32,830 nucleotides of DNA, taken from positions 1-32,830 of the forward strand of contig NZ_JAMTDV010000037.1 in assembly GCF_023806565.1 (NCBI RefSeq), in the 5' to 3' direction. The position numbers were made by a program, and so were the translations under genes. This document shows, in pieces, positions 3,137 through 23,967 of this stretch (position 1 is the stretch's first letter; each line of letters starts with the position of its first letter). The notes under the pieces were generated by a model, which was not told the DNA's origin, did no database searches, and was given only the letters and a program-made list of their open reading frames with translations. The DNA is from Accumulibacter sp. GTDB lineage: Bacteria; Pseudomonadota; Gammaproteobacteria; Burkholderiales; Rhodocyclaceae.

Positions 3137-3177
3137 TACACGTTTTCACGTCGACGAATCCTGCGTCAGGAGGCAAC

Positions 3178-5466
3178 ATGGAAAACGATCCGCGTCGGGC
3201 CGACCTTCGCGAGGCAGCCCTCGAATATCACCGTTATCCCACTGCGGGCAAGATTGCCGTGCAGCCGACCAAGGGGCTCAGCAACCAGTTCGATCTCGCA
3301 CTCGCGTATTCTCCGGGAGTGGCGTATGCCTGTCATGCCATCGTCGATGACCCGGGCACGACCAGTCTGTACACTTCGCGCGCAAACCTGGTGGGCGTCA
3401 TCACCAACGGCACGGCCGTGCTCGGCCTCGGCAACATCGGCCCGCTGGCCGCCAAGCCGGTCATGGAAGGCAAGGGCTGCCTGTTCAAGAAGTTTGCCGG
3501 TATCGATGTGTTTGACATTGAACTTGCCGAAAGCGACCCGGATCGTCTGATCGACATGATCGCCGCCATGGAACCGACTCTTGGCGGCATCAACCTGGAA
3601 GACATCAAGGCGCCGGAGTGCTTCTACATCGAGGCAAAGCTCAAGGAGCGGATGTCGATTCCGGTGTTTCACGACGATCAGCACGGTACCGCGATCATTT
3701 CGTCGGCGGCGATCCTCAATGCGCTCCAGTTGACCGGCAAGAATATCGGCGAAGTCAAGGTCGTCTGCTCCGGAGCGGGGGCGGCGGCGATTTCCTGTCT
3801 CAACCTGTGGTGTGACCTTGGTGTGCAGCGCGAGAACATCACCGTCTGCGATTCGAAAGGGGTCGTCTATCGCGGCCGTGACGAGAACATGGAGCCGACC
3901 AAGGCGCGTTATGCCCGGGACACCGAAGCGCGCACGCTGTCCGACGCGATCGACGGCGCAGACGTCTTCCTCGGACTTTCCACAGCCGGGGTACTCGCTC
4001 CGGAGATGCTCGAGCGCATGGCCGAGCGTCCGATCGTCTTCGCGCTTGCCAATCCGACACCGGAAATCATGCCGGAGCAAGCCAAGGAGGTGCGTCCCGA
4101 CGTGATCATCGCTACCGGTCGCTCGGACTACCCGAACCAGGTCAACAACGTTCTCTGTTTTCCCTTCATTTTCCGCGGTGCGCTCGATGTCGGTGCAACG
4201 GGAATCAACGAAGCGATGAAGATGGCCTGCGTCAGGGCACTGGCGGCCATGGCGCAGCAGGAGGTGAGTGCGGAAGTCGGCATGGCGTATCCCGGCGAAG
4301 AACTCTCGTTCGGGCCGGACTACCTGATTCCCAAGCCCTTTGACCCGCGTCTGATCACCACCATCGCTCCGGCGGTGGCGCAAGCGGCGATGACTTCCGG
4401 AATCGCCACCAGGCCGCTTACCGATATGGTTGCCTACAAGGAGCGGCTGGCCGAATTCGTCTATCGAACCGGAGTGGGCATGCGCGCAGTGTTTTCTGCT
4501 GCCAAGCGCGGGCGGCGGACGCGCATCGTATACCCGGACGGCGAAGACGAACGTCTGTTGCGCGCGCTGCAGATCATTCTGAATGAAGGTCTGACTCGTC
4601 CCATCGTCATCGGCAGGCCGGATGTCATTGGCGCCCGGATGGAGCGAATCGGCTCGAAGCTGCGCATTGGTGTCGACTTCGAGGTGGTCGATCCGAGCAG
4701 CGACCAACGCTACAAGGAGTGCTGGACTGCCTACCATCAGCTCAGGAAAAGGCATGGGGTGACCATCGACATCGCCAAGTCGCGCCTGCGCAATGACAAT
4801 ACCGTGATCGGCGCCATCATGGTCAGGCTGGGCTACGCCGACGGCATGATCTGCGGCCTGACCGGCCGTTTCGCGCATCATTTGCGACATGTCGACGAGA
4901 TCATTGGCAAGGCGCCGGGCTGCAAGACCATGGGAGCGATGGCGCATCTCGTGTTGCCCGGTCGCGCCCTGTTCATCTGTGATACGCACGTCAATGAGAA
5001 TCCGGATGCCGAACAGCTGGCCGAAATTGCGCTGATGGCGGCGGACGCGGTTCGGCGTTTCAAGATTCGGCCGAAACTGGCAATGTTGTCGCATTCCAAT
5101 TTTGGATCGCGGCAGAGCGTTTCCGCATGCAAGGTGGCCGAGGCAGTGGCGCTGATTCGCGCCAAGGCGCCTGACCTCGAGGTCGACGGGGAGATGCGCA
5201 GCGACACCGCGCTTTCCGCCGAGATACGCAAGCAGTTCGACCCGCAGTCGCCACTGATCGGTGAGGCCAACCTGCTGGTGATGCCCAATCTGGATGCCGC
5301 GAACATTTCCTATAACCTGCTCAAGATGACCGGCAGCGACGGCATGGCGGTCGGTCCGATCCTGCTTGGTGCGGCGCGCCCGGTGCACGTGATCGGCCCG
5401 ACTTCTACGGTTCGCCGGGTGGTGAACATGACCGCTCTGGTGGTGGTGGACGCGGCAAGCAAGTAG
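3178..5466 (+). CDS. maeB: NADP-dependent malic enzyme with phosphotransacetylase-like C-terminal domain
   Basis: This enzyme oxidatively decarboxylates malate to pyruvate and CO2, supplying NADPH and linking the TCA cycle to pyruvate. The 762-residue protein matches the usual MaeB length. The N-terminal part (about 1-425) is malic enzyme: Tyr44 in [11 protein letters not shown], Lys99 in [25 protein letters not shown], the metal-site block [10 protein letters not shown] and an NAD(P)-binding GAGAAA loop. The C-terminal part (about 430-762) is the phosphate acetyltransferase-like domain, which in MaeB proteins binds acetyl-CoA as an allosteric effector and has no transferase activity. ATG at 3178 is preceded by AGGAGG at 3168-3173. 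The frame is open much further upstream, but that extension runs antisense to the EF-G-like gene and was discarded. Confidence 0.95.
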
Positions 5467-5682
5467 GGGAGGCCCGCCAGCGGCGGCAGGAAATCGCTCG
5501 CAACGGGGCTGGCGAGTTCGCGCGCGGCTTTCGTCCAACGCCGACTGCCGCCGGCTACGTCGGCGGTGTGGACAACGCTGGGGTGCGTCTGCCTTTACAA
5601 ACCGGCGCAGCCAATGCATCATCAGGTTGGCCGGTATGGCCGGGATGCTTCACCTCGCATCGTAAGGTCCTGTCGCAGATAG

Positions 5683-13787: not shown

Positions 13788-13977
13788 GCAGCTTCTCCAG
13801 GCACGTCCGGCAGTAGCAGCCAACTCCTGTTGCCGGTGCGCAGATCGGCGGCGGTACCGCCATGCACCAGCAGCCAGCAAGGCCAGCGGCAGCGCCGCAG
13901 ACGAAACTCTCGCCGCAGCCGGCGCATGCCACGGTCGGTGCGCCGCCAGGTGGTCGAAAGGCGTGCTGATCAGTCAC
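13756..13977 (-). CDS. Small cysteine-rich CWC family protein
   Basis: A 73-residue protein starting at GTG 13977, which overlaps the end of bufC by 8 bases. It contains CAGCGESFVCG (C18, C21, C27), CWC (C36-C38) and CYCRTCLEKL (C54, C56, C59), matching the cysteine-rich CWC family. That family is small and presumed metal-binding, with no assigned function. Translational coupling to bufC makes it the fourth gene of the bufferin operon. It also overlaps the 3' end of nudB by 32 bases, tail to tail. An upstream ATG in the same frame (14058) would lie inside bufC and is less likely. Confidence 0.72.
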   Translation of the reverse strand: MTDQHAFRPPGGAPTVACAGCGESFVCGAAAGLAGCWCMAVPPPICAPATGVGCYCRTCLEKLLSAPPSAPAI

Positions 13978-14734
13978 GTGCCAGCAATCCCTCGGCGATC
14001 CAGCGCTGGACGAAGGCAGCGGCCGTCCGTGCTGCCTGCTGGTCGCCGCTTTCGGCAATCAGCAGACAACAGTCGGCGAAGCTGGCCAATCGCGTCAGGG
14101 CGTGCAGGACACGCGCTTCGCAGGCGTCGGCCGAGCGCCAGTAACAGTCGAGGTCGCGCCGCCAGACAAGCAGAGTGTGCGGCAGTTCTTCAGGCTCTTC
14201 GCTGTCGGCTGCAGAATCGGCGTTGAGCGCTTTCCAGGTCGGTTCGATCCGCCAGCGCAGATCGACCAGCCGGACCGACGGTATCAGTCGGAAAGACAGC
14301 CCTAGCCAGTGCTCGGGCCGCAGCGCGGCGACTTCGTCGAAAGTCAGGAGCTCGGCATCGGCGGCGTCGAATGCGGAACGCATTGCCCAGTCCATGCGCG
14401 CCAAGTCGAGCAGTGCCGGGTGTGGCAGGTGCTCCGGCGCGGCAGCGAGGAAGTCCGCCAGGGTCCCGCCGAACCAGCGAATCGAGCGGAAGTGCGAAGG
14501 CTGTCGATCGATGTAAGCGTCCGCCATATCGGCGAAAGCGTCGTCGCCGAGAGCCCGCGCCAGGACCGGGAAATTGTCTCGCAGTGCGGCCGTCAGGCGC
14601 GCCCGGTAGGCCTGCAGGTATATGGCGAAGCCGCCCTCCCGCGTCGGCGTTTCCTCGGCGAACAGGCCGGGGGTCGGTTCGCCGCCAAGGATAGCCGTCT
14701 GAAAGCGTTGTTGCAGCTCGGGAAGGCTGTTCAC
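13970..14734 (-). CDS. bufC: BufC: DUF2063 partner protein of the MNIO enzyme
   Basis: A 254-residue protein with the DUF2063 N-terminal domain: [15 protein letters not shown] at the start, then [20 protein letters not shown] and [19 protein letters not shown]. In bufferin biosynthesis the DUF2063 protein works with the DUF692 multinuclear iron oxidase to bind and modify the precursor peptide. The ATG at 14734 overlaps the stop of bufB by four bases, so the two are translationally coupled. The C-terminal half is less conserved. Confidence 0.9.
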
Positions 14735-15570
14735 GCTGCTTGCTTCCTCGTGGCCAGAGCGCGCCGGGCGAGCGAGCGTGCACTGTCGAGCTCGCCGACG
14801 AGTTCGGCGAGCGACGGGATGTGGTCGTCGCGCTCGATCATCGTTGCCACCGGGCCAAGCCGGCCGATGGTGTAGGCGTAAAGATCCCAGACTGCCGTGC
14901 AGACCGGATGATCATGGGTATCGATCAGGTAGTCGCCATGATCCTCATGACCTGCGAGGTGTATCTGGCGGACGGCTTCGACTGGTACCGCATCGATGAA
15001 AACGCGCGGGTCGAAGCCGTGATTGACGCTGCTCACGTAGACGTTATTCACGTCGAGCAGCAGCTCGCAGCCAGTACGTCCGACCAGTTCCCGAATGAAT
15101 TCCCACTCGCTCATCTCGTCCGCCAGATAACGCACGTAACTGGAAACGTTTTCCAGCAACAGGGCCTGCCCAAGGGCATCCTGGACCTGGGCCACGCGCG
15201 GAACGAGATGGCGCAGCGTCTCTTCGGTGTACGGGAGGGGCAGCAGATCGTGAAGGTTCAGCGACCTGGTTCCGGTCCAGCACAGATGGTCCGAGACCCA
15301 GGCTGGCTCGACACGGTCGACCAGCCCGCGCAATTCACGCAGGTAGCCAGCGTCAAGCGGATCGCTGCTGCCAATCGAAAGGGAGACGCCGTGCAGCACC
15401 ATCGGATAGTCTTGGCGGATTCGGTCGAGGAAATACAGCGGCTTGCCACCGGCGACGAGGTAGTTCTCGGAGATCAACTCGAGCCAGTCCACCGCCTGCG
15501 GCGCAGCCAGGAAGTCGCGATAGTGTTCGGTTCGCAGGCCAAGGCCAAAGCTTTCGAGTTTTCCACCCAT
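14731..15570 (-). CDS. bufB: BufB: DUF692 multinuclear non-heme iron oxidase (MNIO)
   Basis: MNIO enzymes install oxidative modifications on cysteines of ribosomally made peptides; BufB-type members make thiooxazole or related heterocycles on bufferins. The 279-residue protein shows the family's metal-site motifs on a TIM-barrel plan: ELISENY (E35, N36), [12 protein letters not shown] (H60), [57 protein letters not shown] and the C-terminal ERDDHIP. It lies 79 bases downstream of the peptide gene and is coupled to bufC. No missing active-site motif is apparent. Confidence 0.93.
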
Positions 15571-17621: not shown

Positions 17622-18281
17622 CTAGTGCGCACGCGTCGACACATACTCGGCGACAGCTGAGATCTCCTCATTCGTCAGGCGCCCGGCGATGTCACGCATC
17701 ACCTTGCCGGGGTCGTTGCTTCGGCTGCCATCCTTGTACGCCTTGAGCTGCTTTTCGATGTAGTTCGCATGCTGGCCGCCAATTGCCGGCGCCAGCACGA
17801 CCGGCGGCTTGCTCATCACCTTGTTCCAGTCCCGATTGCCTTCGCCGGCGGGTCCGTGGCATCCGATACACGCTGGTACCGGTTCGGGACGGCCCTTGCC
17901 GCGCAGGAAGAGTTTTTCTCCCTGAGCCAGAAGCTCTCGGTTTACGGCTTCGTCCGCCTTGATCTTCTGTTTCGCGAAATAGGCGGCAATGTCCAGCAAG
18001 TCAGCATCGGCGACGGCCTGCGCCTGCGGCTGCATCTGCTCATTTTTCCGCCGTCCCGCCTTGAAATCATACACTTGCTTGACGATGTATTCGGGCAACT
18101 GACCGGCAAGTTTTGGCCAGGGGTCTGCGGGCGGCGGCAAGGCAATGCTGTTGCCATCGGGACCGTGACAGGCCGCGCACACTGCCGCTTTCGCCTGCCC
18201 GAGTTCTGGATCCCCCGCGGCGAGCGCGGCACCCGTGATTCCGAGAAACGCCACACCGAGCATGGGCATGGTCTTGAACAT
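17622..18281 (-). CDS. Diheme cytochrome c4-type periplasmic protein
   Basis: A 219-residue exported protein with a signal peptide (about 1-22, cleavage after ALA) and two class I cytochrome c domains. Their haem motifs are CAACH (35-39) and CIGCH (138-142). The probable axial methionines are in EQMQPQAQ for the first domain and in KVMRDIAGRLTNEEI for the second. Length and two-domain layout match cytochrome c4, which carries electrons from the bc1 complex to terminal oxidases. It is transcribed away from the cox operon with 175 bases between, suggesting it is the electron donor. The start has a GGAGGAAGGAAG site upstream. Confidence 0.9.
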   Translation of the reverse strand: MFKTMPMLGVAFLGITGAALAAGDPELGQAKAAVCAACHGPDGNSIALPPPADPWPKLAGQLPEYIVKQVYDFKAGRRKNEQMQPQAQAVADADLLDIAAYFAKQKIKADEAVNRELLAQGEKLFLRGKGRPEPVPACIGCHGPAGEGNRDWNKVMSKPPVVLAPAIGGQHANYIEKQLKAYKDGSRSNDPGKVMRDIAGRLTNEEISAVAEYVSTRAH

Positions 18282-18456: not shown

Positions 18457-19218
18457 ATGTCCGAACACGATGCTGCCCACGCCCACCATGCTGGTCATGC
18501 TCACTGGGATACCAGTATCTGGCCGGCGATCATCAGCGTCGGCATTCTGGCCTGGAGTCTGGCCTTCAGTTTGCATTTCGTCTATCACCAGAGCTTCATG
18601 GCGTTGATCGCTTTCGGAATTGGCATCCCGCTGATCTTTGGTGGCGTCGCCGGTTGGACCGGCGAGGCGATGGGCACGGGAGAAGGTCTCGCCTACGGAG
18701 CGATGGGCTGGTTCATCCTCGCTGAAGCGATGATCTTCATGAGTTTCTTCGCGTACTACTGGTACATGCGCCTCTCGGCGCCGTCGTGGCCGCCGGCCGG
18801 GACTCCCCCATTGCCCGTGGTTTACCCCATTGTCATGACCATCGTGCTGGTCAGCTCGTCGATCACGATCCACATGGCCGAAGAGCATATGCATGACGGA
18901 AACCGATCGGCGTTCACCAGATGGCTGCTGCTGACCATGGCCCTGGGTCTCACCTTCCTTGGCATGTCGATCTACGAGTGGAGCCACCTGATCCACGAGG
19001 GTTTTACCATCGCCACCAATAGTTTCGGCACGGTCTTCTACTCGATCACCGGTCTGCATGGTTCGCACGTGATCGTCGGTCTGGGGATCTTTACCGCGGG
19101 ACTGTTCCCCGCGCTCAAAGGGAAGATTTCGAGCAGTTTCTGGCGTACGGCCAGCCTCTATTGGCACTTCGTGGACATCATTTGGTTCTTCGTCGTCTCT
19201 CAGGTTTACTTCTGGTAA
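18457..19218 (+). CDS. Heme-copper oxidase subunit III (COX3 family)
   Basis: A 253-residue seven-helix-type COX3. The N-terminus is histidine-rich (HDAAHAHHAGHAHW). Family motifs are present: LAEAMIFMSFFAYYWYMRL with the conserved helix-III glutamate, TGLHGSHVIVGLG, and the C-terminal LYWHFVDIIWFFVVSQVYFW. Subunit III stabilises subunit I and feeds protons to the D-path in oxidases. GGGAGGA at 18444-18450 is a strong ribosome-binding site. It is the first gene of the operon, an unusual position because cox3 usually follows cox2 and cox1. Its last 58 bases overlap the downstream SCO gene. Confidence 0.9.
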   Translation: MSEHDAAHAHHAGHAHWDTSIWPAIISVGILAWSLAFSLHFVYHQSFMALIAFGIGIPLIFGGVAGWTGEAMGTGEGLAYGAMGWFILAEAMIFMSFFAYYWYMRLSAPSWPPAGTPPLPVVYPIVMTIVLVSSSITIHMAEEHMHDGNRSAFTRWLLLTMALGLTFLGMSIYEWSHLIHEGFTIATNSFGTVFYSITGLHGSHVIVGLGIFTAGLFPALKGKISSSFWRTASLYWHFVDIIWFFVVSQVYFW

Positions 19219-20000
19219 CGTCTGCGGCGGTGGCGTTCGCTGTCAGTGAACCCACCCCGAACAGTACGCCAGATAGCTCGGTCATGCGTATCGACGAGCC
19301 GCAGTTCCTCGGCAGTCGTCTGAATGGTGCCGTGGAGTTGGTAGACAGCGACGGGCGCGCTTTCAGTTTGGCGCAGATGTTTGGCAAGCCGTTGATCCTG
19401 TTGCTTTCGTATTACGGCTGTGACGGCACCTGCCCGACGATGAATGGCGAGCTGGCGAAGGTGCTTGGCAAAATCGATCGCTTTCGTCTGGGCCGCGATT
19501 ACCGTGTTCTGACCGTCTCGTTCGACAGACGCGATTCGCCGGGAACGGCCGCGGAATTTCTCCGCAAGACGGGAGGATTGCCCGCTGCCTGGCGGGATGG
19601 CTGGCGGCACGCCATTCTCGCGGAGAAGGATATCCCGTCGTTTGTTGGAAGTATCGGTTTTCGCTTCTTCTGGTCCGATGGCGCGAAGGCCTTTCTTCAC
19701 CCGAACGTGCTGGTCTTTGTCACTCCGGAAGGTCGGGTGGCGCGGTATATCTACGGAACACGAATGGATGCGCGGACGATCGAGTTGGCACTTACCGACG
19801 CGGACTGGGAGCGCATATCGAATTCGACAGCTGTGTTTGACATGCTGACCGGTGCGTGCTTCAGCTACAACTATGAAGAAGGCAGGTATCAACTGAATTA
19901 CTCGCTAGTCGCGGGTGTGGGTTCTCTGCTCCTTGGTCTGAGTGTGATGGGTCTTGGGGTATGGGGTTATCGAAGGAAGATTGGGAGGTTGCATGAATAG
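19161..20000 (+). CDS. SCO1/SenC-family copper chaperone, with C-terminal membrane helix
   Basis: SCO proteins deliver copper to, or reduce thiols of, the CuA site of oxidase subunit II. The thioredoxin-like fold has C87 and C91 in YYGCDGTCPT and the copper-ligand histidine H180 in FLHPNV. The N-terminus (LVLRRLSGLLLVTSAAVAFA) is a signal peptide. Unlike most SCO proteins it ends in a second hydrophobic helix (about 248-270) followed by basic RRK. No ATG fits: TTG at 19161, or TTG at 19182, is the probable start, inside the cox3 3' end. The stop overlaps the cox2 start by eight bases. The placement between cox3 and cox2 fits CuA assembly of the cox2 product. Confidence 0.82.
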   Translation: MALRGHHLVLRRLSGLLLVTSAAVAFAVSEPTPNSTPDSSVMRIDEPQFLGSRLNGAVELVDSDGRAFSLAQMFGKPLILLLSYYGCDGTCPTMNGELAKVLGKIDRFRLGRDYRVLTVSFDRRDSPGTAAEFLRKTGGLPAAWRDGWRHAILAEKDIPSFVGSIGFRFFWSDGAKAFLHPNVLVFVTPEGRVARYIYGTRMDARTIELALTDADWERISNSTAVFDMLTGACFSYNYEEGRYQLNYSLVAGVGSLLLGLSVMGLGVWGYRRKIGRLHE

Positions 20001-20721
20001 GGCACTCAAGCACTGTGCGGCGGCGACGGTCATGGTGGTCGCTAGCGCCGGCGTGATGGCAGCCGGTTATGGCGATGCGCGCATCGTGGACCCGGCTCCC
20101 GGATGGGATCACCTTTGGCGCGAGGTGATCATCGACATCACGGTGATCGGCATTCTCTTTGCGCTGATGACCGCTTACTTCATCTGGCGCTATCGACGGG
20201 TGCCTGGGGGGCCGACGGTTGGCAGCGGCCCGACCCTCTCTACCGCCGCCGCGATTGGATGGGTGATCATCCCGGTTTTCGTCTTCATGGCGGATGACTT
20301 TTTCATCGCCGCCAATGGATGGGTGCTGTGGAATTCCTACCGGGACGTTCCTGCTGATCGCCTCGAAATTCAGCTTGAATCGGGCATGTACAGTTGGGAC
20401 TACACCTATCCCAATGGCGCCCACACGCAGAATCAGCTGATAGTCCCTGCCGGGAAGCCGATTCTGTTGCGCATGACGAGTCGCGACACTCTTCACAACC
20501 ATTTCATTCCGGATTTCCGGGTCAAGGAAGACTCGATGCCGGGCCGCGTAACCTATCTTTGGTTCCTGCCCAAGGAAGCGGGAAAGGAGCATATCGTGAC
20601 CTGCGCTGCGTACTGCGGAGTGATGCACTCGTACATGGCGGGACGCGTGATCGTGAAGACGCCGGAAGAGTTCAAGGCATGGTATGAGGCCAGCGGCACC
20701 GCGGCCAAGAAGAGCAGTTGA
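19993..20721 (+). CDS. Heme-copper oxidase subunit II with CuA site
   Basis: A 242-residue subunit II: signal peptide (about 1-24), two membrane helices (about 44-66 and 86-106) and a periplasmic cupredoxin domain. The CuA ligands are H168 in TLHNHF and C204, C208, H212 and M215 in CAAYCGVMHSYM. There is no fused cytochrome c domain. The usual CAEYCG/CSEICG glutamate, which gives a CuA backbone ligand and a Mg side-chain ligand, is alanine (A206). A GGGAGG site precedes ATG 19993, which overlaps the SCO gene by eight bases. Twenty bases separate it from the cox1 ATG. Confidence 0.9.
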   Translation: MNRALKHCAAATVMVVASAGVMAAGYGDARIVDPAPGWDHLWREVIIDITVIGILFALMTAYFIWRYRRVPGGPTVGSGPTLSTAAAIGWVIIPVFVFMADDFFIAANGWVLWNSYRDVPADRLEIQLESGMYSWDYTYPNGAHTQNQLIVPAGKPILLRMTSRDTLHNHFIPDFRVKEDSMPGRVTYLWFLPKEAGKEHIVTCAAYCGVMHSYMAGRVIVKTPEEFKAWYEASGTAAKKSS

Positions 20722-20741: not shown

Positions 20742-22313
20742 ATGAACCTCAAGGAATGGATTTTCACCACGGACCACAAGCGGGTCGGAGTGCTCTACCT
20801 GATCGGCTCGATTGCGGCTTTCATCGTCGCCGGAGTCATGGCGCTGCTGATGCGCATCGAGCTTTCATCGATCGGCCCCACGATCACCAACAATCCTTCC
20901 AGCTATAACGTCTGGCTTTACGCACATGGCGCGGTAATGATTCTCGGTTTCCAGATTCCGGCTCTCACCGGATTCTTTGCCAATTTCTGCATTCCGTTGA
21001 TGATTGGCGCCAAGGATGTCGCGTTTCCGCGCGTGAACGCATTGTCTGTATGGCTGTTCTACGTCGGCGTGATTCTCGCGCTGTTGACGTTCTTCATCCC
21101 GGATCCGCCGGATGTCATGTGGACCGGCTATCCCCCGTATTCGACCATAACTACGGGCAACACCGCGTTATATACCTTCACGGTGCTGGTCCTCGGTTTC
21201 GCCTCGATCCTGGGAGGAGTCAACTTCCTGACTACCATTGCGTACATGCGCGCCCCGGGCCTGACCTGGAACAAGCTGAACATCTTCGTCTGGTGCGTCG
21301 TCGGGGCGTTCATCCTCCAGCTGATTTTCGTTCCGGTGTTGGGGACGGCGGTTACTCTGATCAGCATGGACAAGTATCTGGGGACACATTTCTTTGACCC
21401 GACGCAGGGAGGCGATGTCCTGACCTACCAGAACCTGTTCTGGTTCTATTCGCATCCCGCCGTGTACGTGATCTTCCTGCCGTTCTTCGGTGTCCTGTTC
21501 GAGATCGTCGCGACCTTCGCCAAGAACAAGGTGTTCAATTACAAGGCGGCGGTTTATGGGGGCATCTTCGGAATCGTCCTGTTGGCCGGGGAAGTCTGGG
21601 TCCATCACCTGTATGTCTCGGGAATGGTTGATTGGATCCGCGTTGGCCAGATGGTGACGACATTGCTGATCTCGGTTCCGGTCGGCCTGATGCTGATCAG
21701 TCTGGTGGGAACGCTGTACAAGGGTTCAATCACCTTCGAAACCCCCATGCTCTATGCGCTTGGCGTGCTCTTTCTGTTCCTGATCGGCGGCTTGACGGGA
21801 ATTCCGCTTGCCGTTACCTCGTTGACCGTGCATCTTGCCCGCAGCTACTACGTGGTCGGTCATTTCCATTACGTGATGGCCGTCGCCGGAACGTTCTCCA
21901 TTTTCGCGGGAGTCTACTACTGGTTTCCGAAGATGACCGGCAAGATGTACAACGAGTTCTGGGGAAAATTGGGCTTCTGGGTTACCTTCGTGGGAACCAA
22001 TATCGTCTTCTGGACGATGATGGACATCGGCGTAAAGGGGATGCCGCGCCGCTATTACGACTACTCGCAGTTTCCCCAATTCGAAGGTGCCCACCAACTG
22101 ATGACGATTGGCGCGGTCATTCTCGGCATCGGTTTCGCGATCGCTCTGCTCAACTGGATCATCGGCGCGATCAAGGGTCGTCCGGCCGGTAACAACCCGT
22201 GGGGTTCGATGTCGCTCGAATGGACGACGGTTTCTCCGCCGCCGCACGGTAACTGGCCGACACCGCCAGCAGTGGGTGCTGAGTGGACGCCGTACGCTTA
22301 CGGCAAGAGTTGA
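20742..22313 (+). CDS. Heme-copper oxidase subunit I, divergent A-type (YS motif, no K-channel lysine)
   Basis: The 523-residue catalytic subunit has all metal ligands: low-spin haem H62 and H376, high-spin haem H374, CuB H238, H288 and H289, and the cross-linking tyrosine Y242 in SHPAVY. D-path residues N81, D92 and N99 are conserved. The helix-VI glutamate of GHPEVY is absent and YS (236-237) stands instead, the A2-subtype feature. In ungapped alignment with bovine COX1 from the HH pair, K319 becomes M317 and T316 becomes V314, and the Mg ligands H368/D369 become A366/R367. E284 lies four residues before H288. ATG 20742 follows GGGAGG (20728-20733); an upstream GTG at 20718 is less likely. 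It may reduce O2, or another substrate such as NO. Confidence 0.9.
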   Translation: MNLKEWIFTTDHKRVGVLYLIGSIAAFIVAGVMALLMRIELSSIGPTITNNPSSYNVWLYAHGAVMILGFQIPALTGFFANFCIPLMIGAKDVAFPRVNALSVWLFYVGVILALLTFFIPDPPDVMWTGYPPYSTITTGNTALYTFTVLVLGFASILGGVNFLTTIAYMRAPGLTWNKLNIFVWCVVGAFILQLIFVPVLGTAVTLISMDKYLGTHFFDPTQGGDVLTYQNLFWFYSHPAVYVIFLPFFGVLFEIVATFAKNKVFNYKAAVYGGIFGIVLLAGEVWVHHLYVSGMVDWIRVGQMVTTLLISVPVGLMLISLVGTLYKGSITFETPMLYALGVLFLFLIGGLTGIPLAVTSLTVHLARSYYVVGHFHYVMAVAGTFSIFAGVYYWFPKMTGKMYNEFWGKLGFWVTFVGTNIVFWTMMDIGVKGMPRRYYDYSQFPQFEGAHQLMTIGAVILGIGFAIALLNWIIGAIKGRPAGNNPWGSMSLEWTTVSPPPHGNWPTPPAVGAEWTPYAYGKS

Positions 22314-22389: not shown

Positions 22390-23031
22390 ATGAGCAAACG
22401 GCTATGGGCAATGACGGCACTTGGCGGTCTGCTGATCGCGCTGCTTGCCTCTGCATTGATCTGGCGCTCGCTGCCGTCGCGACAGGCGCCGGCCGTCGAT
22501 CCGGCGAAGCCGCAGCTGTCGGCGGCAACCGTGTTTCCCGAGGAACAATCACTGCCGGCCTTTTCGCTGCAGAGCGAGGGGGACGCCTTTGACAATCGCT
22601 CGTTGGCCGGACACTGGACGCTGCTCTTCTTTGGCTATACTTCGTGCCCGGACGTCTGTCCGGCAACGCTGCTCCTGCTCAAGGAGTTCAAGAGCTCTCT
22701 TCTGCAACGCGGGCTCGTTCCGCCGCGAGTGGTGATGGTATCGGTAGACCCGAACCGTGATACTCCCAACGTCCTGAAACGCTATACGAGTGCATTTGAT
22801 GCGAACTTTGTTGGTGTTACGGGCAGCGAGAAAGCACTGTCTCCACTCGCCGAGACGCTCGGTGTCTATTACCGGCGTCAGCCCCAGGAAGGTGGGAGCA
22901 GCTACGTTGTCGATCATTCCGCGGGAATCTATCTCGTCAGCCCACGCGGCCGCGTCCGTGCGGTATTCTTGCCGCCGCATGACCTGCAGTCGATGTTGCA
23001 CGACTACGCCGCGCTGACGGTCGCTGGCTGA
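22390..23031 (+). CDS. SCO1/SenC-family copper chaperone (second copy)
   Basis: A 213-residue membrane-anchored SCO protein of the common architecture: N-terminal anchor helix (about 5-26), then a thioredoxin fold with C86 and C90 in YTSCPDVCPAT, the VSVDPNRDTP block, and the copper-ligand histidine H176 in YVVDHSAG. Unlike the SCO gene between cox3 and cox2 it has no C-terminal helix, and the two are clearly different subfamilies. It starts 76 bases after cox1, behind a hairpin, and is followed by ctaB. The probable role is CuA or CuB assembly. The ATG at 22390 fits the anchor. Confidence 0.9.
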   Translation: MSKRLWAMTALGGLLIALLASALIWRSLPSRQAPAVDPAKPQLSAATVFPEEQSLPAFSLQSEGDAFDNRSLAGHWTLLFFGYTSCPDVCPATLLLLKEFKSSLLQRGLVPPRVVMVSVDPNRDTPNVLKRYTSAFDANFVGVTGSEKALSPLAETLGVYYRRQPQEGGSSYVVDHSAGIYLVSPRGRVRAVFLPPHDLQSMLHDYAALTVAG

Positions 23032-23070
23032 ACAAGGCGGGCACCGCCGGCCCGAACACGAAGGTACTTG

Positions 23071-23967
23071 ATGATGATTGCGATTTCACAAATTTTGCAG
23101 AGCACTGCGGTGCGGGCGCGTGCTTTCGGCGCGATGACCAAGCCTCGGGTAATTTCACTGATCGTCTTCTGTGCAGGCATCGGCATGTTCCTTGCCTCGC
23201 CCGGGCCGGTGCCACTGCAGATTCTGATTGCGGGGATGCTTGGCATTGCACTCGTAGCCGGTGCGGCGGCTGCCGTCAATTGTCTGATCGAAGAACACAT
23301 CGACTCGCAAATGGCACGGACGCGAGCCCGGCCGCTGCCAAGAGGCGAGGTGGGGGCGTTCGAGACCTTCTTTTTCTCCGGCGTCCTCGGCGGAGTGGGT
23401 CTGTCCCTCCTCTATCGCCTGGTCAATCCACTGACCATGTGGCTGACGCTGGCGACCTTCGTCGGCTACGCGGTGATCTACACGCTCTATCTCAAGCCAA
23501 GAACCCCGCAGAACATCGTGATCGGTGGCGCTGCCGGGGCGATGCCGCCCGTACTCGGCTGGGCCGCGGTGACCGGTGAAGTGCCGGCCGAAGCCTGGCT
23601 GCTGTTCCTCATCATTTTGCTCTGGACGCCGCCTCACTTCTGGGCTCTCGCCTGCTACCGCTGCGCCGACTACGCCAGGTCAGGGCTGCCCATGTTGCCG
23701 GTGACCCGTGGCATACCTTTCACTTGCCGGCACAGTCTGCTCTACGTCGTCCTGCTGACCATTGCGACTGTCCTGCCATACACCCTTGGTATGAGCGGCC
23801 CCTGGTATCTGGTCGCTGCCCTGATTCTCGATTCGATCTTTCTCGTCTACAGTGTCACTCTGTGGCGCAACTACAGTGACAAGCTGGCGAGGTTGACCTT
23901 TCGCTATTCGATCCTCTACCTGACATTGCTATTCGCATCACTGCTGGCCGATCACTTCCTGCACTGA
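23071..23967 (+). CDS. ctaB: Protoheme IX farnesyltransferase (heme O synthase)
   Basis: CtaB/CyoE farnesylates haem B to haem O, needed for haem O/A oxidases. The 298-residue membrane prenyltransferase of the UbiA superfamily has [16 protein letters not shown], the allylic-diphosphate motif region [21 protein letters not shown] (N and the acidic cluster, about 72-92, spread over more than one turn), [20 protein letters not shown] and the second motif [14 protein letters not shown]. Starts at ATG 23071 or 23074 are equivalent; AAGG at 23061-23064 serves the first. No ctaA (heme A synthase) is in the window, so the final haem type is unknown. Its 3' end overlaps convergent mpl by 30 bases. Confidence 0.92.

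Follow-up and report, generated by a model that had tools for sequence, protein, structure and literature searches.

The coxA gene of an Accumulibacter sp. contig (NZ_JAMTDV010000037.1, of which the whole 32,830-nucleotide stretch was analysed and is here called the window) encodes an A-type haem-copper oxidase subunit I without a K path. The K-path lysine is missing from 141 sampled A-type sequences that form two clades and span several phyla, and 107 of these lack the entire path; its loss is a trait of the window gene's whole clade and not a peculiarity of that gene. In the sampled clades the loss is strongly associated with an acidic residue in subunit II, with two independent origins. From sequence, we put at about one in two the probability that the enzyme is a proton-pumping-type cytochrome c:O2 reductase, derived from A2 oxidases, from which the K path has been removed and in which protons reach the active-site tyrosine via subunit II.

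The coxA reading frame (20742..22313, + strand) specifies a 523-residue protein that scores 428 bits against Pfam COX1 and 558.6 bits against the CtaD/CoxA family, under the NCBIfam cut-off of 670.75; its assignment as a K-less, A2-derived subunit I rests on family profiles and on the best 80 of 245 related loci. The initial annotation had reported that the K-channel lysine and T316 are lost, and this was borne out by the codons of V314 to M317 (21681..21692, +), which occupy the positions of bovine T316 and K319 in a register that does not depend on a single alignment: that with Thermus caa3 is ungapped between HH and PVGLM, and the HH-to-Pro spacing of 24 residues equals that of bovine CoxA. 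The third K-path position, bovine S255, absent from the initial annotation, is occupied by F253 (21498..21500, +; codons and alignment). Direct reading of codons also upheld the claim that the residues binding haem and CuB, the tyrosine of the cross-link, and the asparagines and aspartate of the D path are kept (Y242, H238, H288, H289, H374, H376, N81, D92 and N99), and that the helix VI motif is YSHPAVY, with A240.

The genes around coxA are those of an oxidase operon. Subunit III is encoded by coxC (18457..19218, +; COX3 98 bits, start chosen by eye), of which the upstream position is conserved, and subunit II, with a CuA site and two transmembrane helices, by coxB (19993..20721, +; profiles and AF2 model). 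Between them lies a Sco-like copper chaperone gene with a C-terminal hydrophobic stretch (19161..20000, +; SCO1-SenC 27 bits, cut-off 22.8), a position kept in many clade loci. A second Sco1/SenC copper chaperone (22390..23031, +; SCO1-SenC 129.5 bits, start by eye) and a ctaB/cyoE haem o synthase (23068..23967, +; TIGR01473 298 bits, above cut-off) follow coxA, and the operon with its copper chaperones and haem o synthase is conserved across many loci. Divergent from coxC, a two-domain cytochrome c (17622..18281, -) with two Cytochrom_C stretches is likely the electron donor of the oxidase; its homologue adjoins coxC in many betaproteobacterial loci. A few kilobases upstream of the cluster (window 13970-15570, -) are an MbnB/TglH/ChrH-type RiPP modification enzyme and a DUF2063 protein, which we take to be a methanobactin-like pair, and an 818-residue reading frame at 3166-5622 (-) has no Pfam match at E 0.001.

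Relatives were sought in one genome per species. The best 80 of 245 related stretches are 66-92% identical and their titles name Beta-, Gamma- and Zetaproteobacteria, Magnetococcales, Nitrospirota, Nitrospinota and Myxococcota. Among the matches listed for 397 Pseudomonadota genomes, clade members have 53-100% identity and 594-1181 bits (481 for one shortened member), and the other matches have at most 45% identity and at most 436 bits. Within the window's own family, 8 of 61 genomes, the own one among them, possess a member (split into two pieces in G704), and 38 of the remaining 53 have a lower-scoring match only. The counts given here, that of the 107 unique members among them, leave out five loci that duplicate own-genome genes or belong to other families (L001-L004, L089), further copies of an identical CoxA, CoxA sequences with fewer than about 430 aligned residues and the two PDB reference rows; locus L225 stands outside both K-less groups, and plasmid records were counted separately.

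In these 107 members the K position is Met (50), Leu (46), Thr (4), Cys (4), Ile (2) or Val (1), the T316 position Val (99) or Phe (8), and the S255 position Phe (62), Tyr (36), Met (6) or, once each, Ala, Leu and Ile. This concordance in 107 of 107 members rejects a sequencing error or pseudogene as the cause of the loss. Position 311 (S311 in the window, 21672..21674, +; the position of bovine A313) is Ser in every member, although it is not specific to them. The D-path residues N81, D92, N99 and S102 are near-invariant (Asp92 is found in 106, with Glu in the remaining member), the cross-link tyrosine is present in 106, and the catalytic residues as a whole are near-invariant down to 53% identity and across several phyla. 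The sole row with His for the cross-link tyrosine (HPAVH) is that of Dechloromonas SSD3 (L008 7001-8569).

A lysine elsewhere in subunit I, which the initial annotation allowed might fill the K path, was sought in the predicted helices, where no conserved candidate was seen. Lysines 13, 211, 397 and 409 are common, as Lys or Arg, to K-bearing relatives, lysine 268 sits at a helix end, and position 478 is Lys in 36% of rows and also lies at a helix end. Four residues before the HH pair in helix VII, E284 (window 21591-21593) is matched by an acid in 87 of the 107 clade members (77 Glu, 10 Asp) and in 7 of 49 K-bearing A2 rows.

Replacement of both Mg ligands, by A366 and R367 (21837..21842, +), was likewise correctly described from the codons, but it is lineage-specific and was rejected as a family trait: position 367 is Asp or Glu in 98 of 107 members and Arg in seven (the window and six relatives), and position 366 is Ser in 71 and His in nine. 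The Mg-ligand Glu of subunit II is kept in 96 of 103 clade CoxB; in the window it is A205, in the CAAYC motif of the CuA loop (20608..20610, +; codons read). In all six rows in which both sites could be seen, Arg or Gln at 367 coincides with absence of this Glu from subunit II; the single row with Gly at 367 (L194) retains the Glu.

In a tree of 77 rows with the trait columns masked, 30 K-less representatives unite at SH-aLRT 100 and adjoin two K-bearing A2 groups of a Nitrospirota sample (L165-L172; SH-aLRT 81 and 99), a placement which indicates that the change from K-bearing to K-less occurred inside A2. The gene order coxC-Sco-coxB-coxA is found also in these K-bearing A2 groups (L229-L231). 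A placement among A2 oxidases sharing the same substitutions had been named in the initial annotation as evidence against its reading; the protein does sit beside A2 oxidases, but these bear the lysine, and only its own clade has the substitutions. Loss of the helix VI glutamate, listed there as part of an unusual combination, is real but ordinary for A2 and older than loss of the lysine, as all 49 K-bearing A2 rows have Ala or Val there. The A-type definition by channels, as excerpted from PMC3084760, requires a K channel. Of its marks CoxA has the cross-link tyrosine of helix VI (Y242), the D channel among the residues mapped (N81, D92, N99 and S102, with Y236 replacing the glutamate) and the phylogenetic position, beside K-bearing A2 groups; it lacks the Lys, Thr and Ser of the K channel (M317, V314, F253). 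CoxA is therefore filed as an A2-derived K-less variant and not as A2.

Subunit II shows both a loss and several gains; neither these nor the missing Mg-ligand Glu of this subunit figure in the initial annotation. Residues of CoxB are numbered from Asn-1 (19996). The position of the K-path entrance Glu (E101 of R. sphaeroides subunit II) is A86 in the window (20251..20253, +; codons and alignment), and this Glu is found in 0 of 103 clade CoxB, as against 39/39 in A2, 30/31 in A1 and 15/15 in A1-sister CoxB. The CuA ligands are intact. Transmembrane helix 2 carries D100-D101 (20293..20298, +), of which D101 occurs in all 103 clade CoxB, and transmembrane helix 1 carries E43 to D47 (20122..20136, +), of which D47 is present in 102 of 103 (with one gap) and E43 in 76; a polar residue at 107 (K/N107) is a further gain. 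Acids are absent from the D101 and D47 columns in all 85 K-bearing CoxB, many of them being gapped at column 101; by spacing from the helix 2 proline, one of the 85 (L184) has a nearby Asp. Fifteen residues separate D101 from the preceding entrance-Glu position, a spacing that is ungapped in the HMMER alignment to R. sphaeroides but at which MAFFT places its gap; by the HMMER spacing it would lie on roughly the same helix face as the entrance Glu. A single-chain AF2 model of CoxB (24 sequences, mean pLDDT 82.9) has helices at 34-65 and 83-116, which place D47 and D101 at similar depth, about 18 residues from the cytoplasmic helix ends, and by estimate near the level of the active-site tyrosine.

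Follow-up of an outgroup row (L219) that lacks the lysine and has an A1 motif gave a second K-less clade of 34 members, derived from A1. Its K position is Met (14), Ile (13) or Val (7); the Thr position is mostly Phe (20) or Ile (6), with Ser kept in five, and the Ser position mostly Leu (14) or Ala (10), with Thr in one. Position 311 is Ser or Thr in all 34. In 28 of the 34, the D101 column of CoxB is Asp; the remaining six have, by eye, a Glu that keeps the spacing in three and lies close by in the other three. In the 15 K-bearing sisters of this clade, position 311 is Ala, the entrance Glu is retained and the acid is missing. Two features of the second clade fit cytoplasmic entry: it keeps the entrance Glu in 16/34, and has Glu or Gln at CoxB position 56, in the cytoplasmic half of helix 1 about nine residues from the cytoplasmic end, in 28/34.

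Over 238 rows, position 311 is Ser in 140, Thr in one and Ala in one of the K-less sequences, and Ala in 90 and Gly in six of the K-bearing ones; an acid occurs in the scanned CoxB stretch in 131 of 138 K-less versus 1 of 85 K-bearing sequences. A tree of 44 representatives requires two losses of the lysine, each with both gains. A single K-less clade is rejected by AU tests in subunit I (p 2.2e-12) and, with helix 2 masked, in subunit II (p 1.3e-4), which rules out a single origin followed by transfer. Of the positions in subunit I that were left after filtering, only 311 gained the same polar residue in both clades. With two independent events only, significance is out of reach of a sign test.

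The association does not amount to a universal rule. Twelve plasmid-borne oxidases of named hosts were read, of which eight keep the lysine; three of these eight have Ser at 311, which weakens S311 as a specific marker of the loss, although no Ser occurs in the 96 K-bearing rows. Four alphaproteobacterial plasmid oxidases have Gln for the lysine; they retain Ser255 and show no acid in the corresponding part of helix 2, which indicates that the lysine can be lost by another way. These four are A1-type (L293, L295, L296, L297), and two of them (L293 and L295) adjoin an FdhF/YdeP oxidoreductase and c-type cytochromes. Four of the K-bearing plasmid records have a CoxB match, and none of these showed an acid in that part of helix 2. 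A CoxA paralogue (L225, G1043 C31) has Glu for the lysine, Gln for ligand His (GQPEIY, GQHMF) and no helix 2 acid, and is probably not a normal oxidase. It and the four Gln-bearing plasmid oxidases break any rule that absence of the lysine entails an acid in subunit II.

The suggestion of a remodelled proton supply stands: the K path is absent clade-wide, no conserved lysine in the predicted helices of subunit I looks like a substitute and subunit II has new acids. The preferred reading starts from an enzyme with CuA, a low-spin haem, a haem-CuB-Tyr site, an intact D path and A2 descent, in which the Lys, Thr and Ser of subunit I and the entrance Glu of subunit II have been lost. Protons for the active-site tyrosine would then pass via the membrane acid D101 of CoxB, with D47 and D100, and from D101 to S311 and T307 on helix VIII and on to Y242; they would enter from the periplasm, as in cNOR, with some charge separation per O2 lost. 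Conduction by the acids, their orientation towards helix VIII and the side of entry are inferences. The new polar positions seen in the window's clade, CoxB E43, D47, D100, D101 and K/N107 and CoxA Q303 and S311, lie by helix position at the estimated level of the tyrosine or periplasmic of it. A periplasmic supply is favoured because of these positions and because the cytoplasmic halves of helix VIII and of CoxB helix 2 are nonpolar in this clade. That A-family oxidases have twice exchanged the K path for an acidic subunit II wire to the tyrosine, fed in the window's clade from the periplasm, is a tentative proposal, possible rather than probable.

Several other explanations compete with supply through subunit II from the periplasm. 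The D path, which is intact, could carry all chemical and pumped protons, the K path being dispensable and the acids serving structure, the exit of protons or the docking of cytochrome. Two points weigh against this rather unlikely reading: K-path mutants made in the laboratory cannot bring the site to full reduction, and the acid tracks loss of the lysine in two independent clades. The reading gains from the account in PMC8079940, in the part consulted, that mutants without the K-path lysine still undergo the first reduction of the oxidised state. The K-type protons might instead keep their cytoplasmic origin but travel through subunit II, as by E/Q56 and then D101 in the second clade, leaving the energy yield unchanged. 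We consider this unlikely; in the window's clade, position 56 is Ala in 82 of 103 CoxB and no strongly conserved new polar residue was seen in the cytoplasmic half of helix 1. The Met at the K position recalls the K362M mutant of R. sphaeroides aa3 (3om3), which we take to be a laboratory single mutant with the other K-path residues and the A1 glutamate wild-type, and might suggest a slow or degenerate oxidase retained for sensing or detoxification; near-invariant catalytic residues in 107 members and a conserved operon with chaperones and haem o synthase make this very improbable.

The initial annotation had also raised the possibility that the enzyme is not an O2 reductase but resembles sNOR. 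This was not supported, as the enzyme retains the tyrosine of its active site, the six His and every CuA ligand, and we regard a main function in nitric oxide reduction as highly improbable, even though the N-side path is lost and close relatives occur in denitrifiers. One of these relatives (L014) belongs to an NO-fed enrichment, and the authors assign NO reduction in its organism to cNOR (PMC10390337, in excerpt). According to the portions of PMC8756737 available, Asn replaces the active-site tyrosine in sNOR and Gln in eNOR; CoxA has Tyr, and the sNOR-type sequence of the sample, from an ammonia-oxidiser genome with an AMO match (L131), has Asn. The sNOR (NorSY) of ammonia oxidisers shares with CoxA the haem-copper superfamily and a SenC-like gene in its cluster, but is B-type (PMC6967387) and has Asn for the tyrosine (PMC8756737). 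The cNOR/qNOR motifs given in PMC3084760, H-X-aromatic-X-E and HHX-aromatic-aromatic-X17-E, do not fit either, the first being absent by eye (HPAVY). Tree placement also argues against sNOR, eNOR and cNOR identity. cNOR resembles the proposed enzyme in having no N-side channel, its periplasmic proton supply serving as an analogy, but differs in iron for CuB, lack of CuA and glutamate motifs (in part from PMC3084760).

The own genome has four COX1-type genes, which encode CoxA, a cbb3 oxidase, a B-like protein that lacks the tyrosine (L003) and a highly divergent protein (L004). L003 (1201-2895 of own-genome contig C3) has Gln at the tyrosine position, as given for eNOR in the part of PMC8756737 cited above; it is possibly the NO reductase of this organism, and its presence as a separate protein is a further point against that function for CoxA. 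L004 (1297-2784 of contig C82) scores 36.7 bits against Pfam COX1 and matches no NCBIfam family; inspection by eye showed no tyrosine motif in it and a thioredoxin-like reading frame beside it. L004-like proteins occur near the K-less coxA in 26 of the best 80 loci, with flanks of varying length (for example L017 9319-10578), and also in the K-bearing sister loci L228, L230 and L231.

Among known systems, A2 oxidases (Thermus caa3, 2yev; L165-L172) are most like CoxA in fold, YSHPxVY-type motif, D path, CuA subunit II and tyrosine; unlike the clade, they keep the Lys, Thr/Ser, Ser and entrance Glu (39/39 A2 CoxB) and have no helix 2 acid, 2yev having Ala at the S255 position. In a curated survey of 1216 haem-copper sequences, as summarised in PMC3084760, four lacked the family-marking channel residues and all grouped with B-type. 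No description of a K-less A-type clade was found in the open-licence literature, to the extent of the texts available there, subscription papers being outside its scope.

In 22 of 27 genomes, judged by score and with genome completeness not given, there is no second A-type-scoring gene, which suggests that the K-less enzyme is probably a working oxidase; carriers include Ideonella aquatica (L017) and I. livida (L025). As apparently the sole A-type oxidase of such organisms, it bears on the energy yields assumed for them. If A-family oxidases have indeed twice exchanged the K path for an acidic wire in subunit II, fed in the window's clade from the periplasm, then not every A-family oxygen reductase relies on a K path, and some O2 reductases join D-path pumping from the N side to a P-side supply of protons to the tyrosine. 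The K-less clades offer natural, stable enzymes for probing the role of the K path, an alternative proton source and the charge cost per O2.
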